Positions 4,291 to 26,481 of a DNA stretch of 26,481 bases are shown here, one piece after another. A program made the translations under genes and the position numbers. The DNA lies in IMG/VR virus record IMGVR_UViG_3300005613_000356, positions 1 to 26,481 of that record. One strand, 5' to 3'. The notes under the pieces were generated by a model that was not told where the DNA came from, made no database searches, and saw only the letters and a list, made by a program, of their open reading frames with translations. Origin of the DNA: a virus. Position 1 is the first letter of the stretch. Each line of letters begins with the position of its first letter.

Positions 4291-6080
4291 TCTAAAAATG
4301 TTATCTCGAAATTATCATCATAAAGTCTATTGACCTTGTAGTTTATGGTAGCATAGTTATCCCATATCTGCCACTCCAAAGATTCTATCTGTGCAGGCTC
4401 TCCGGCCTCTGTCTCTACTTGGTTGTTGTCTAGTAAAGTTACAAAATCCTCAAAACAAAAAGGTATTTTTTGCTCCCTGTATAACCAGTATTGATTATGC
4501 TTGCCATCTATCTGCTTAAAGCTATTGATAAAATGGTAATTTTGCCACAACTTAGATGCAGCCATTATACTCCTTTGGTCTTTCTGCAATGTTCCTCCTG
4601 CCATTACTACCATCCTACATCCGCTGCTAAAATGGCTAGAGCTCAACATACTGCCTATCCTGTTGGTAATCTTACCGGATAAGCTTTGTGGATTGCCTAG
4701 CTGTCCTGTCAAAGCATCGGCCACACTAACCAAAGCTCTAGCTATCTCCTCTATTACTGTTAACTTATCCTTTCTAAGTGCTAAGCTGATAGGTATGCTT
4801 ACCTCTTTCAATCCTTTCAAGGTAGTAAGCTTTGAGTTTATTGTTACCTTTGGCTTTAAAACTGCTTGATATACTCTGCCGTTCTGATTATCTAAGGTGT
4901 TCAAATCTTGATTGTCGAATGCCCAGTTAATATTGTAGTTAGCTTTTATCTCGTCGGTATTAAAGCTGTTTGTATCTATCAACTTTTCCTGATCGATAAA
5001 GGTATCAGGTATTACATATCCTGCACTCTTTTCAAAGAAATCTCTACGCTCAAAGATAAACTTACCATCTGTTAGCTGAAAGTCAGCATTAAATACCTCT
5101 TTAAATGTTCGTACTACTCCTGCAAAGGTATTTAACGGATCCTGTGCCGATGGTACGCCCGTTTCTCTCCAGGTATTATCTGCACCTGTAGGCTTTTCGC
5201 CTCCTCTGTGATTCTTTGCAGGAATTACTACCCATTGATTGCCACTAACATCAAAGCTATCTAGCAAGGTACTTTCTAAGGTCAAATCTAAGTACTCACA
5301 GGCCTTAGCAAATAGGCTTTTAACAGTCATCCCCTTATGAAATCTTTTAGGAGGTAAGATTTGCTCTATAATCTGCTCTACAAGCTCAACAATGGCAACA
5401 ATAATAGCTACGATATAGGCAATTTGTGCAATTAGCTTTAATGCAGCCATAATGATATTACCGATATCGTATGCCGTAACAACTCCTGCACCTAATCCTG
5501 CAGATACACCCACCACAGGAGTAGCAGCATCTGTAAGGTCAGCTATCCTATCTGCTAGGGTTTGGATGTTTTCTATCAGCTCTTTTGTCAATATAAAGGT
5601 AGATATAGACAATATCAATAGCTGTGCTCCATCGGGAATATAGTTGATAACATAAGGTACAGATACAAAATCTGCATCAGTTATGATTCCCTGATTCTCT
5701 AGGTATCGATAGCTAAAACCATCGGCCACCTCATTAAGCCAGTCATTACCTTGCTCCCTCTTTAGGGTACATTCTACCTCGCACTCATCAATAAACTGCA
5801 CTCCTGCACTAAAATCTAAGAATCCCTCAAAGCTTGCAGGATTGTTCAGGTCTCCTACCTCTATCCTGTATGGTTCTCCCTCAAAAAAGCCTACTCCTCC
5901 TGTCAATCCGGATAGTATTCTATCTCTAAGTGCTTTCCCCTCATCCGCTACCAATCTGATAGAATTGATAGTAATATTGGCAGCCTCTTTTTTGCCCTCC
6001 CAATCCATAACTATCTTTGCTTGGTCGAAATCTCTAGGATTAACTAGGATACCATTCCTGTAGTGCCGAATATCTGCCAT
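4287..6080 (-). CDS. Tail-tip hub-like protein with internal membrane-like segment
   Basis: A 597-residue protein immediately after the tape measure (TAATG overlap), the usual place for distal tail or baseplate hub proteins. Residues 1-125 and 245-597 are ordinary soluble alpha/beta sequence. Residues about 151-165 are strongly hydrophobic. Residues about 188-243 form a Gly/Ala-rich then Ile/Val/Leu-rich stretch (GVSAGLGAGVV..., IAQIAYIVAIIVAIVELV) long enough for two membrane helices. The hydrophobic block is followed by a PPKRFHKGMTV sequence that starts the C-terminal domain. A membrane-active segment in the tail tip would fit a role in genome entry through the host inner membrane. That role is inferred, not shown. 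Confidence 0.8.
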   Translation of the reverse strand: MADIRHYRNGILVNPRDFDQAKIVMDWEGKKEAANITINSIRLVADEGKALRDRILSGLTGGVGFFEGEPYRIEVGDLNNPASFEGFLDFSAGVQFIDECEVECTLKREQGNDWLNEVADGFSYRYLENQGIITDADFVSVPYVINYIPDGAQLLILSISTFILTKELIENIQTLADRIADLTDAATPVVGVSAGLGAGVVTAYDIGNIIMAALKLIAQIAYIVAIIVAIVELVEQIIEQILPPKRFHKGMTVKSLFAKACEYLDLTLESTLLDSFDVSGNQWVVIPAKNHRGGEKPTGADNTWRETGVPSAQDPLNTFAGVVRTFKEVFNADFQLTDGKFIFERRDFFEKSAGYVIPDTFIDQEKLIDTNSFNTDEIKANYNINWAFDNQDLNTLDNQNGRVYQAVLKPKVTINSKLTTLKGLKEVSIPISLALRKDKLTVIEEIARALVSVADALTGQLGNPQSLSGKITNRIGSMLSSSHFSSGCRMVVMAGGTLQKDQRSIMAASKLWQNYHFINSFKQIDGKHNQYWLYREQKIPFCFEDFVTLLDNNQVETEAGEPAQIESLEWQIWDNYATINYKVNRLYDDNFEITFLE

Positions 6081-22228: not shown

Positions 22229-22588
22229 CTAGAAAGGTAGATCGTCCGTTAATTGTGATGTTTTGTCCTGTGCACCTACTGCATGCTCAGGTGTAATATC
22301 AGTATCTTGTTCCTGCTCAGCTGTTTCTACTCTCCATACATCGATAGTATTAAAGTAGACTGTTTTGCCCTCCGGAGATGTCCACTTACGGCCACGTAGG
22401 TTGAAATGAAAGTTATAGATGCCTCCCATTGTAAGCTTTTCTATCTTTTCGATTTTGTCCTGTACAGCTTGCATCTTAATTGTTTGCGGATATTCTCCAT
22501 CTGTTTCGATTACAAACTCTTGCTTTCTGAATGATTCGCCATGCGTTGTTACGTCAAATCTTTCGATTAATCTTGCTGTGATTTCCAT
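22229..22588 (-). CDS. ssDNA-binding-like protein (DUF3127-type)
   Basis: A 119-residue protein, MEITARLIERFDVTTHGESF..., with the pattern of DUF3127: KQEFVIETDGEYPQTIKMQA, an I-E-K-I-x-x-L-x-x-G loop, then FHFNLRGRKWTSPEGKTVYFNTIDVWRVE, an OB-fold-like ladder of strands. A disordered acidic tail ends DDLPF, the classical SSB tip that recruits replication partners. It would coat single-stranded DNA during phage replication. It lies two genes after the primase-helicase. The leader AAAACATTCAAAA immediately precedes the ATG and has no Shine-Dalgarno site. Confidence 0.82.
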   Translation of the reverse strand: MEITARLIERFDVTTHGESFRKQEFVIETDGEYPQTIKMQAVQDKIEKIEKLTMGGIYNFHFNLRGRKWTSPEGKTVYFNTIDVWRVETAEQEQDTDITPEHAVGAQDKTSQLTDDLPF

Positions 22589-23426: not shown

Positions 23427-25214
23427 TTATAGTGTTACTAAATTACCATTTTCATCATGTGTGAATCTAAATTCATCAGGATCTTTACTACCTCTGACAA
23501 AAGGAAACTCTACAGTAGAATCTTTTGAATCTTTATTTTTTGTTACTCTGATAGTCATTTTACATTTATTTTGTAGTTCACCTCCTAGATGGCCTCTTGC
23601 TGAACCAGTGCTACGAGCTGTATGCAGTACAGGTATAAACATGGTATTATTCTCTCTTGTGATGTTCATCAAAAAATTTATGAGAGCTCTTGAACCTTTT
23701 TGGTCGTTATAGTCCTCACAGATATCCACTATACCATCAAGGATAAGTACTCCAACATCATACTGATCAAATACACTCTTAACAAACTGCAATCTTTCGC
23801 TTATTGTGTATTTACAGATATCAAAAGCCTCAAAGTTAGGAGGATCTATATCCGGTTGTACTCCTGCTTGTTTGTATATCTGTTTTACGCTATCATAAAA
23901 GTCGTTTTTATTCTGCTCTGTATCTATCACTATTACGTGCCGACCTTTTACATCTCCTGAAAATTTTAGCACCTCATTAGTACCAGACAAAAGTGCTGCA
24001 GCTATAGAGTTTGACAGTGCCGATTTTCTTGATTTTGCAGCACCTGAAATCATAATCATATCTCCGAATGCAGCCATTGGCATTCTTTCCTCGAAAGGTT
24101 CGTTTTGAAAATATAGGATATGCTCTATTTTATCAGGAACATTTTTAATCCTAAACCTGTGCTGATGTACTCTTTCAAATATGGTGAGATCTCCTTTATC
24201 TTTTCCTGTCTCCTCAGATAGATTCATTATCGTATCATAGTAGGAGTCTCTATTTTTTGAATATCTTTCACCATATCCCTCTTTGTAAAGTTGGCTACCT
24301 GCTTTTTTTTCATCACCTCCATGTTCGTAGACCGAATAAATATGAAAAGCATTATAAGCTTTTTTTGCCTCAAAAGGAGTAGATGTAGAGTAAACATAAA
24401 AAAGGTTTAATCCGGTATGATAAGACCCACTATGACCCTCTCTTATTGTTTTACCAGGTCTTACGTAATATAGATTTTCTCCAACTTTATATTTAAACTG
24501 CCAACCATACTGCTCTATCAAATCTTTAGGACTGTGTGCCTCGTTAAAGGCCTGTCTAGGACCTTTCGTTTTTCCATAATCCTTTACAGGAGTTGGAGCT
24601 AAGTTTTTGTAGTGATCTGTAGTTTCGTTAAAAAGTCTGCAGGCACTGATTATCCCATTGCGCTCCTCATCTGTGATTAGGTGAACATTTAGTATCGAAT
24701 GAGTTTCTTGGTTATCGTATTCATATCCTGGTGTTGGGGGAATAAGTATGTATCCACCTACTCCTCTAGTTTCTAGCAGGACTCTAATCTTATCATTTTC
24801 GTTTTTCTTTTCGCTCTCGATGGTATATCTCTGCGCTAGCTTTTGATTGCCTTGAGGGATATTGGTTCGATAGATTAGGTGATACCCTCCGGATATTGTT
24901 TTTGACAGAATTAGCTTTTCATAAGTTTCTAATCCTACAGCATCAATTATCTTATCCATCAATTTGGTGAAAAGATCATCATCTAAGCTATATTTTAGGT
25001 CAATATCAATAACCTCTATGCCATCTGCTGTAAGTAGTGCCATCCCTCCGATATTGGTTTGAGAAAACAGCTGCTCTACATCCTGTTGTGTTTGTTTATC
25101 TTGGTATTGTTTCCAAGATTTGCACATTGGCCTTTTTCCATTAGGCTTAGATGGAGATGTTGTAGGGATGACTTTAAAGCCAGCCTTATGTAGTTTTAAT
25201 GCCTCTTGTTTCAT
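23427..25214 (-). CDS. Bifunctional primase-polymerase / helicase
   Basis: A 595-residue replication protein with two domains. The N-terminal prim-pol domain has GIEVIDIDLK (catalytic D70 and D72), SGGYHLIYR with H112, and LLETRGVGGYILIPPTPGYE with E148. A linker region with YGWQF...YVRPGKT and a STSTPFEAKKAYN segment follows. The C-terminal RecA-like AAA_25/RepA-type helicase has Walker A GAAKSRKS (391-398), Walker B VLILDGIVDI (489-498, D493) and HTARSTGSARGHLGGELQ (531-548). It would unwind the origin and prime DNA synthesis. It begins 4 bases after the initiator gene, and the two would act together. Confidence 0.93.
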   Translation of the reverse strand: MKQEALKLHKAGFKVIPTTSPSKPNGKRPMCKSWKQYQDKQTQQDVEQLFSQTNIGGMALLTADGIEVIDIDLKYSLDDDLFTKLMDKIIDAVGLETYEKLILSKTISGGYHLIYRTNIPQGNQKLAQRYTIESEKKNENDKIRVLLETRGVGGYILIPPTPGYEYDNQETHSILNVHLITDEERNGIISACRLFNETTDHYKNLAPTPVKDYGKTKGPRQAFNEAHSPKDLIEQYGWQFKYKVGENLYYVRPGKTIREGHSGSYHTGLNLFYVYSTSTPFEAKKAYNAFHIYSVYEHGGDEKKAGSQLYKEGYGERYSKNRDSYYDTIMNLSEETGKDKGDLTIFERVHQHRFRIKNVPDKIEHILYFQNEPFEERMPMAAFGDMIMISGAAKSRKSALSNSIAAALLSGTNEVLKFSGDVKGRHVIVIDTEQNKNDFYDSVKQIYKQAGVQPDIDPPNFEAFDICKYTISERLQFVKSVFDQYDVGVLILDGIVDICEDYNDQKGSRALINFLMNITRENNTMFIPVLHTARSTGSARGHLGGELQNKCKMTIRVTKNKDSKDSTVEFPFVRGSKDPDEFRFTHDENGNLVTL

Positions 25215-25218
25215 GTCG

Positions 25219-26379
25219 TTATAAGTCTCTTTTATCCTTTTCGTCTTGTAGGAGTCTGCGGATATGTTTTTTGTTTACATTATATTCTGATTGATTCTTT
25301 AAAAAAACTAGAAATTCACCCCATCTATTATCCGCCGCAAAATCCTCATAAGTTATGGTTTCGTAATATTCTACAAGATTTTTATCTACAGGATAAATTG
25401 TTACTACTTTATCCAAGAGAACATCTAGGAGAGTGAATATAGTTAGATTTTTGTATTTACTAAATTTTTCCTTGTGTAACTTTACAAGATGTGGTCTAAT
25501 CAGATCAAAAACATCAAGTCGGTACTGCAGATGCCCATTAGGCCATCGCCATTTGTTTACATCTCTCTTTAATGCTCCTAAGTAGTAATCAGAACCACTT
25601 TTAGTATCTTTGTGATGGTTATCAAAAAAGTCAGCTAAGTAAGCTTTGTAGTCTACCTGATTAAGTAAAGATTGACTGGCTTTTTTATCGGAGTGTGTAT
25701 ATCGACTAAGCAAATGTTTTTGCAGGGCATCTACTACTGCCTGATCATTGTAATACTTGTATTTATCGAACATCACAAAGAATGCTGATAAATGTTCTTG
25801 GATAAATTCGGTAGTAAGTAGAAATCCATTGTAATGCTGAAACTCTTTATTAATGTTGTCAAGCTTATCACTACCCTCCCCGTAGAAATTTACTATTGCC
25901 TGAAACGCCTGACGTTTATCATAATGATTACCATTTGAATCATTGCGATCAGCAATGTTTTTCTTTTTATTTATTTCTTTATTTCTTTCTTTAGTTGTTG
26001 TTAGTCCTTTGTTGCTCCTTTGTTGCTCCTTTGTTAACACTATGTTGGCAGGGATATCAGTTTCAACATTACAAGATGCGTAAGCCTCGTAAGCACAGAC
26101 AGTTATAACAGTATATTGGGTAGTAGAGTCCTTTGTTAGTGCCTTTAGTTTTTCAAGCTTGCTAACATACGTTCTAACAGACTGTATACTCCATTGTAAT
26201 TCATCTGCTAAGTTGCCATAAGAGGATACAAATTGACCTCTTTTGATAATTATTCCATGCCAATTCTTAGGCTTAAAATTAGCCTTTAACAAGCAATGAT
26301 AAAATAGCTTGAATGCTTTGTCATCTGTGTAAAACGGGAGATCCATAATAGATCTACTGGTTGCAATATGTCCTATCAT
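25219..26379 (-). CDS. Replication initiator with winged-helix domain; carries origin-like repeats
   Basis: A 386-residue protein. Residues about 40-100 (HGIIIKRGQFVSSYGNLADELQ, IQSVRTYVSKLEKLKALTKD) form a winged helix-turn-helix like those of phage initiation proteins that bind the origin. Residues 110-150 are a charged low-complexity linker (TKEQQRSNKGLTTTKERNKE). The rest is helical and would bind the primase-helicase or its loader. The linker is encoded by three tandem 11-bp repeats next to a T-rich block and a palindrome. It is the first gene of the replication operon in the window, right after a hairpin/T-tract in its leader. Confidence 0.82.
   Translation of the reverse strand: MIGHIATSRSIMDLPFYTDDKAFKLFYHCLLKANFKPKNWHGIIIKRGQFVSSYGNLADELQWSIQSVRTYVSKLEKLKALTKDSTTQYTVITVCAYEAYASCNVETDIPANIVLTKEQQRSNKGLTTTKERNKEINKKKNIADRNDSNGNHYDKRQAFQAIVNFYGEGSDKLDNINKEFQHYNGFLLTTEFIQEHLSAFFVMFDKYKYYNDQAVVDALQKHLLSRYTHSDKKASQSLLNQVDYKAYLADFFDNHHKDTKSGSDYYLGALKRDVNKWRWPNGHLQYRLDVFDLIRPHLVKLHKEKFSKYKNLTIFTLLDVLLDKVVTIYPVDKNLVEYYETITYEDFAADNRWGEFLVFLKNQSEYNVNKKHIRRLLQDEKDKRDL
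25941..26035. other. Candidate replication origin inside the initiator gene
   Basis: Three parts lie in order. Three tandem 11-bp units, read GCTCCTTTGTT on the plus strand, occupy 26014-26024, 26025-26035 and, with two changes (AGTCCTTTGTT), 26003-26013. A nearly pure T/C stretch follows at 25958-26002. A perfect 6-bp inverted repeat, CATTGC/GCAATG with GATCA between, sits at 25941-25957. Iterons, AT-rich element and palindrome inside an initiator gene match the plan of the lambda origin in gene O. Origin activity is inferred. Confidence 0.6.
26003..26035. repeat. Tandem 11-bp iteron-like repeats
   Basis: Two perfect copies and one imperfect copy of GCTCCTTTGTT sit head to tail. The unit length is about one helical turn, so bound proteins would lie on one face of the DNA. 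In protein they encode part of the charged linker of the initiator, and because 11 is not a multiple of three the copies are read in different frames. Confidence 0.8.
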
Positions 26380-26389
26380 AATAATAAAT

Positions 26390-26468
26390 AAAAAAAGGTC
26401 TATACAAGTGATTGCAAGTTTTGGCTGAGCCCACAGACAAGCTCCTTACTAACCACCTGTATAGACCT
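26390..26468 (-). terminator. Leader hairpin with T-tract before the initiator gene (terminator/attenuator)
   Basis: On the minus strand AGGTCTATACAGGTG (26468-26454) pairs with CACTTGTATAGACCT (26410-26396) over 15 positions, one of them a G-U pair, with a 43-base loop. A run of seven T (26396-26390) follows and the ATG comes 11 bases later. The loop can form a minor GAGC/GCTC stem. It could end transcripts from the right or attenuate the replication operon. Confidence 0.75.
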
Positions 26469-26478
26469 ATTCTATACA
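26458..26478. repeat. Second inverted repeat sharing an arm with the leader hairpin
   Basis: TGTATAG (26458-26464) and CTATACA (26472-26478) are perfectly complementary with a 7-base spacer. The left arm is also part of the terminator stem, so on RNA the two hairpins exclude each other. As DNA, it is a symmetric 21-bp site that could be an operator. The window ends 3 bases later. Confidence 0.6.
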
Positions 26479-26481
26479 AAT

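Follow-up and report, generated by a model that had tools for sequence, protein, structure and literature searches.

A probable replication origin within the initiator gene of a tailed phage, with 11-bp repeats and a candidate residue–base recognition code

Replication origins situated inside the initiator gene are known from a few model phages, and the pairing of initiators with their origins has been solved case by case. In the lambda O protein, the N-terminal domain binds and the C-terminal domain recruits. The lambda iterons lie about 20 bp apart, possess dyad symmetry and are bound by dimers (PMC7466680). The replisome organizers of phages Tuc2009 and TP901-1 bind direct repeats within their own genes, and these repeats act as origins (PMC8965321). 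In the RepA_N initiators, such as that of pSK41, Rep boxes in the centre of the initiator's own gene are bound by an N-terminal winged-helix domain; the origin DNA encodes the middle domain, and the C-terminal domain is separate (PMC5703833).

The locus described here belongs to a 26,481-base virus fragment (the window, that is, the whole stretch of DNA that was analysed), which represents a tailed phage with terminase, portal and virion genes and carries its main genes on the minus strand throughout. The initiator gene occupies the right end of the window and is followed by the gene of a PrimPol/RecA-like protein and by an SSB-like gene:

25219..26379, minus strand: initiator gene (open reading frame), 386 aa, winged helix, disordered linker and helical C-terminal domain
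23427..25214, minus strand: partner gene, PrimPol with RecA-like ATPase (PF09250, E 2e-11)
22229-22588: SSB-like DUF3127 gene, downstream of the partner PrimPol gene

As judged from its sequence and by analogy with described systems, the initiator gene very probably harbours the phage's replication origin in the part that encodes the protein linker. The product of the partner gene, which matches phrog_19930 (E 8e-52), contains the Walker A motif GAAKSRKSA and matches AAA_25 at an E of 2e-4 that falls under the Pfam cut-off, is presumed to be a primase-helicase.

Residues 1–154 of the initiator match phrog_2514, a family of DnaD-like helicase loaders (E 2.9e-23), which is also the top family for the initiator of the relative L022 and for seven L100-series loci, and O-like PHROGs are matched weakly (phrog_345, E 3e-5). 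The Pfam search of the initiator returned no family at E 0.1, hence no RepA_N domain, and the sequence search against solved structures gave nothing significant. The AlphaFold2 model comprises a confident winged helix (aa 5–101; pLDDT about 84–93 across aa 21–100; order of elements H-H-E-E-E-H-H-E-E), a disordered linker (aa 103–148) and a helical C-terminal domain. In the fold search against the PDB, only generic winged helices were retrieved, at E 0.065 or worse, and the RepA_N structures 4pt7, 4pql and 5kbj reached Z scores of 8.1–8.8, level with unrelated winged helices. The repeat array and the AT-rich tract are encoded exactly within the disordered linker of the model; the first-pass annotation had placed the repeats in the linker-coding part of a winged-helix initiator gene, and the phrog_2514 match and the AlphaFold2 model agree with this placement. 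The relevant features are as follows:

26077..26379, minus strand: winged-helix DNA-binding domain, aa 1–101 (AlphaFold2 model and fold matches)
26149..26187, minus strand: recognition helix, aa 65–77, in which Gln66 shows covariation with iteron positions 2-3 and Arg69 with position 8
26026..26036, minus strand: iteron 1, TAACAAAGGAG
26015..26025, minus strand: iteron 2, CAACAAAGGAG
26004..26014, minus strand: iteron 3, CAACAAAGGAC
25993..26003, minus strand: iteron 4, degenerate, TAACAACAACT, with matching positions 1–6 (from the sequence; relatives carry 3–6 copies)
25958..25997, minus strand: AT-rich, purine-biased tract, 85% AT

Iterons 1–3, which were delineated by sequence, period scan and synonymous-codon shuffles, read on the coding (minus) strand as AACAAAGGAGC-like units. 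When periods 4–39 were scanned over the whole 26.5-kb window, period 11 at this array scored highest. The score of 22.0 was unmatched in 20,000 synonymous-codon shuffles within the gene (period-11 maximum 16.5), and shuffles evaluated over periods 5–30 (n = 2,000) attained at most 18.5; furthermore, AACAAAGGA occurs five times in the window against 0.34 expected. The tandem 11-bp repeats reported initially, three units at 26036-26004, are thus far beyond chance by the synonymous-codon shuffles. The T/C-rich stretch that had been described next to them was likewise recovered: over 25958-26003 the AT content is 85%, and purines make up 83% of the coding strand. Just 0.34% of 40-bp windows match or exceed the AT content of the tract (85%), which is the presumed DNA unwinding element. 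An extra TAACAAAGGA copy is found at 26127-26138, some 100 bp upstream of the array, with an equivalent at about 5145-5156 in L022. This copy is possibly a fifth site, or else only an echo of the conserved LTK(D/E)ST peptide.

A search of IMG/VR with the winged-helix domain identified 449 related stretches, 80 of which were taken for analysis, and the comparison covers more than 150 relatives in all. Cellulophaga phage phi18:3 and Vibrio phages are among the relatives in culture. Most of the relatives examined, which include viruses and prophages of several bacterial phyla, carry arrays with approximately 11-bp spacing at the same place in the gene. Directly after the winged helix, 50 of 76 distinct ORFs have 11 as their best period, and 5 further ones have 22. 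Under the synonymous null (P<0.01), period 11 is detected in 60 of 81 ORFs (window and relatives) and period 22 in 58, whereas periods such as 10, 13, 17 and 19 are detected in only 0–3 of the 81 and most others in 0–4. The periods above this level are 23 (14 ORFs), 9 and 12 (12 each), 7 (8) and 18 (7); period 22 is the harmonic of 11, 23 is the neighbour of 22, and 9, 12 and 18 are codon-related. As a control, 249 further ORFs from these loci were analysed, of which 3 pass at period 11, and among the held-out loci described below, 60 of 160 distinct ones are without an array above the score used. The arrays of the family consist of 3 to 6 copies with the consensus YAACAAACRAN and begin in all three codon phases, and hence are not imposed by the protein. 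In the average of 59 arrays, an AT-rich tract comes next, the 40 bp past the array being 79–82% AT in relatives versus about 65–70% farther on. The array of the window is genuine, widely conserved and under selection.

The relatives L022 and L023 differ at only three sites over 768 bp (4597-5364). At two of these, 5263 and 5274, iterons 2 and 3 show one and the same A-to-G substitution at equivalent positions, a pattern resembling concerted evolution of the repeats. Such a pair of identical changes in adjacent repeats is what homogenisation would yield, and, given that the low-complexity, Gln/Asn/Lys-rich linker is disordered and tolerant, the repeats could be conceived of as neutral tandem duplications. 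This is highly improbable, however, considering that period 11 is common to most of the family despite differing units and phases, that it is all but absent from the remaining ORFs of these loci, and that the letters of the unit track the recognition helix (see below).

The identity of the partner does not define the array, because arrays also adjoin genes for DnaB helicases, TOPRIM-DnaB_C primase-helicases and DnaC/IstB-like loaders, in addition to PrimPol proteins. The suggestion of the first-pass annotation that this may be a compact version paired with a prim-pol/helicase rather than a host DnaB system is contradicted by the presence of the module beside DnaB and DnaC/IstB-like genes. Most of the 26–40% identical PrimPol loci (L025-L099) have no strong period-11 array near their PrimPol gene, and the search for PrimPol relatives in bacterial genomes gave zero confirmed matches. 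Among L025-L099, period-11 arrays near the PrimPol gene were found in four loci, with units of the TGCGAACGCAT, AAGCGAATCGG and AAAGCAAAAAG types that are quite unlike those of the window:

L035, 5623-5658: 11-bp array upstream of a distant PrimPol gene
L069, 5098-5154: 11-bp array upstream of a distant PrimPol gene
L089, 5075-5126: 11-bp array upstream of a distant PrimPol gene
L093, 1168-1219: 11-bp array upstream of a distant PrimPol gene

A natural domain swap helps to identify the part of the gene with which the repeats are associated. The window and L003 share the DNA before the start codon and C-terminal domains that are 87% identical, whereas their winged helices are only 20% identical; the iterons are of the AACAAAGGAGC type in the window and of the CAACCATCGAG type in L003, with 11-bp spacing in both; the exchanged segment includes the array. 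Conversely, L022 and L023 resemble the window in the winged helix (75–76% identity; 76% for L022) rather than in the C-terminal domain (30–31%; 31% for L022), and their iterons, of the AACAAACGAGY and AACAGACGAGY types, respectively, are both near those of the window. The repeats therefore follow the winged helix, not the remainder of the gene. When C-terminal distance is controlled, winged-helix distance and iteron distance are correlated across the full set (partial r 0.22–0.24, P 0.005–0.011). Controlling for winged-helix distance instead leaves only a weak correlation between iteron and C-terminal distance (r 0.09, P 0.03), which loses significance in the non-redundant set (P 0.21).

Covariation within the family points to particular residues. 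Across 40 non-redundant discovery sequences, mutual information is highest for two pairs: residue 66 and iteron position 2, at z 10.5, followed by residue 69 and position 8, at z 9.0. Both residues belong to the recognition helix, and both values exceed the 95% limit of the null (z 7.8). The resulting code assigns positions 2-3 to residue 66 as follows: Gln, AA; Arg, GA; Lys, GG; Asn, CA; Met, AA; Asp, CC. In the discovery set, Gln66 is accompanied by AA in 32/32 cases, Arg66 by GA in 7/7 and, given Arg69, Lys66 by GG in 7/7, and the window conforms with Gln66 and AA. Gln-A, Arg-G and Lys-G pairings are commonplace in helix-turn-helix contacts. For the held-out test, the rules were fixed and then applied to 231 newly obtained loci, 71 of them from bacterial genomes; discovery arrays were removed, and the register was set with positions 1–3 masked. 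An array counted as testable if residue 69 was Arg or Lys and a rule existed for residue 66; 75 of the 91 such arrays were predicted correctly with the blind register, compared with a permutation mean of 25.7 and maximum of 38, and the success rate with rising certainty of the register was 63/70 (margin 1), 49/52 and 35/35 (margin 3).

Closely related initiators show the same dependence. Among winged-helix pairs that are 55–97% identical, positions 2-3 differ in 354/423 pairs with different residues 66 and in 38/366 pairs with the same residue, although these pairs are not independent. With the same reservation that the pairs are not independent, the effect size of residue 66 is by far the largest among 90 residues (0.70 versus 0.38 for the runner-up). 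For example, L007 and L009, with winged helices 91% identical, have Arg and Gln at residue 66 and GA and AA in the iteron, respectively. Exceptions to the residue 66 rules occur, mostly where the register is uncertain; the rule for Ser66 is unlike between the discovery and held-out sets, and Lys66 combined with a residue 69 other than Arg violates the Lys-GG rule. The loci with Lys66 and Gln, Leu or Ile69 (L129, L137, L145, L148, L202, L207, L209, L211 and L242) carry CAACAAAAG/CAACAAAGG-type repeats, and this subgroup without Arg69 likely represents a second pairing mode. On the strength of the sequence comparisons, the array is, with high probability, read by the winged helix of its own gene, and it is probable that one residue (66) sets two iteron bases and residue 69 another, a simple code that would determine which origin is used across a very large phage group. 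In the literature searched, outside which most subscription papers lie, no statement of a residue–base code for these initiators was found.

The code indicates binding, not the consequence of binding, and the repeats might accordingly be conceived of as an autoregulatory site through which the initiator represses or blocks transcription of its own gene while replication starts elsewhere. In this connection, the region before the gene contains a strongly structured element with counterparts in relatives:

26385-26471, minus strand: long hairpin with a T-run, directly 5' of the initiator start codon
L003, 4715-4826: hairpin counterpart
L009, 5434-5555: hairpin counterpart
L022, 4790-4910: hairpin counterpart

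Of the 28 predicted pairs of the hairpin, 9 keep pairing through two-sided changes among four sequences; the window extends about 10 bases past the hairpin, and the L007 contig starts within it. The Rfam search of 25800-26481 gave no real match. The hairpin has the appearance of a terminator or attenuator acting on the initiator, and because such a structure precedes the gene, expression of the initiator is probably controlled, as the autoregulatory reading would have it. The array, however, lies about 340 bp into the gene, away from the promoter side, an AT-rich tract follows it in the family average, and the same plan is recorded as an origin in Tuc2009, all of which make exclusive autoregulation unlikely; the two roles may also coexist. 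Since the window is a fragment, a second origin beyond it is possible. The GC skew of the longest relative (40.9 kb) is nearly monotonic and follows gene direction, with no minimum at the initiator gene, and is uninformative.

Returning to the reading of the locus as an origin, we infer, beyond the computed repeats, conservation, disordered linker, swap and residue–base code, a course of initiation that starts with binding of the winged-helix domain to the 11-bp direct repeats, in which positions 2-3 would be read by residue 66 and position 8 by residue 69. Most likely, one monomer would occupy each repeat, i.e., each helical turn, in a head-to-tail arrangement on a single face of the helix, which is favoured because the unit lacks a dyad and recurs every 11 bp, about one turn. 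The bound array would then strain and open the adjoining AT-rich tract, and the C-terminal domain would recruit and load the neighbouring PrimPol-helicase, so starting synthesis.

The new elements are the wide distribution of the 11-bp plan, its occurrence with a PrimPol partner, the domain swap and, most of all, the residue–base code. With the reader and its sites in one gene, many uncultured phages and prophages can reveal the pairing rule. If binding is confirmed, origin specificity becomes predictable from sequence, and replication modules can be typed into compatibility groups; if the code is true, origin compatibility would be predictable for phages and prophages of many bacterial phyla, and gene-internal origins would travel with their reader through domain swaps. 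By such swaps, phages could change origins yet keep the match to their replication enzymes. Origin annotation would also become easier, by seeking an 11-bp array after a winged helix.

Among the described systems, lambda was the one originally invoked, with a plan of in-gene iterons, AT-rich DNA and a palindrome. The likeness to the O gene, iterons and then AT-rich DNA within the initiator gene, is one of anatomy only, and this part of the proposal holds, whereas the palindrome and the lambda-type iteron do not. The GATC-centred palindrome of the window corresponds to the following element:

25941..25957, no strand assigned: short inverted repeat CATTGCGATCAGCAATG, perfect 6-bp arms around 5 bp

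Its letters are present, but the window contains 62 inverted repeats with 6-bp arms and loops of 0–8 (14 of them with at least 3 GC), and most relatives are without it: it is missing from L007, L009, L022 and L023 and has an exact match among relatives only in L003, inside a near-identical C-terminal coding stretch. Other exact copies found in an exact scan of viral contigs are located in unrelated genes, and the palindrome was rejected as a conserved origin element. Neither is the 11-bp repeat a shortened lambda iteron, because its spacing is 11 bp and its profile is without a dyad (correlation with its own reverse complement -0.07), versus iterons of about 19 bp, spaced by about 20 bp and with a dyad, in lambda; the same period test gives a best period of 20 for the lambda O gene. 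Moreover, the lambda partner P loads the host DnaB, whereas in the window a PrimPol carrying a RecA-like domain is encoded downstream. A true lambda-type origin, with O-like dimers on inverted-repeat iterons and a functional palindrome, would agree with the identical order of iterons and AT-rich tract and with the weak O-like PHROG matches, but it is very unlikely given the spacing, the missing dyad, the unconserved palindrome and a PrimPol in place of a P-like loader.

The RepA_N initiator of pSK41 has the same three-part plan but differs in its repeats and in the Pfam RepA_N match that the window initiator lacks. In the DnaD-like orf46 of Staphylococcus phage PVL, approximately seven 11-bp copies of ACATCAAAACA stand directly after a winged helix with detectable homology to that of the window initiator and are followed by an A-rich tract; this likeness is known from the sequence layout, and PVL has more copies, other repeat letters and other partner genes. 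The 11-bp plan is not universal for in-gene origins, because the initiators TP901-1 orf13 (L182) and 80alpha orf20 (L183), which have another type of winged helix, show 15-bp or 30-bp periods and no 11-bp array, perhaps a second spacing class of in-gene origins. In Tuc2009, orf16 (Rep2009), annotated as a DnaD-like helicase loader whose record states that it "contains origin of replication", carries four CAACCA copies exactly 11 bp apart in the middle of the gene, the period-11 score of which is marginal by itself (P 0.04). Phage r1t orf11 has a mid-gene 11-bp array of the TGGAACCGAAA type, whose score is reached in 0/500 shuffles. In both phages, the array is followed by a simple-sequence tract, whereas the winged-helix sequences and the repeat letters are other than those of the window, and in r1t a DnaC-like loader adjoins instead of the PrimPol-AAA protein that accompanies the long C-terminal domain in the window. 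By virtue of this shared layout, the window groups, by anatomy, with the known in-gene origins of that type, and the putative origin is best read as an in-gene origin of the Tuc2009/r1t type that resembles lambda in plan only.
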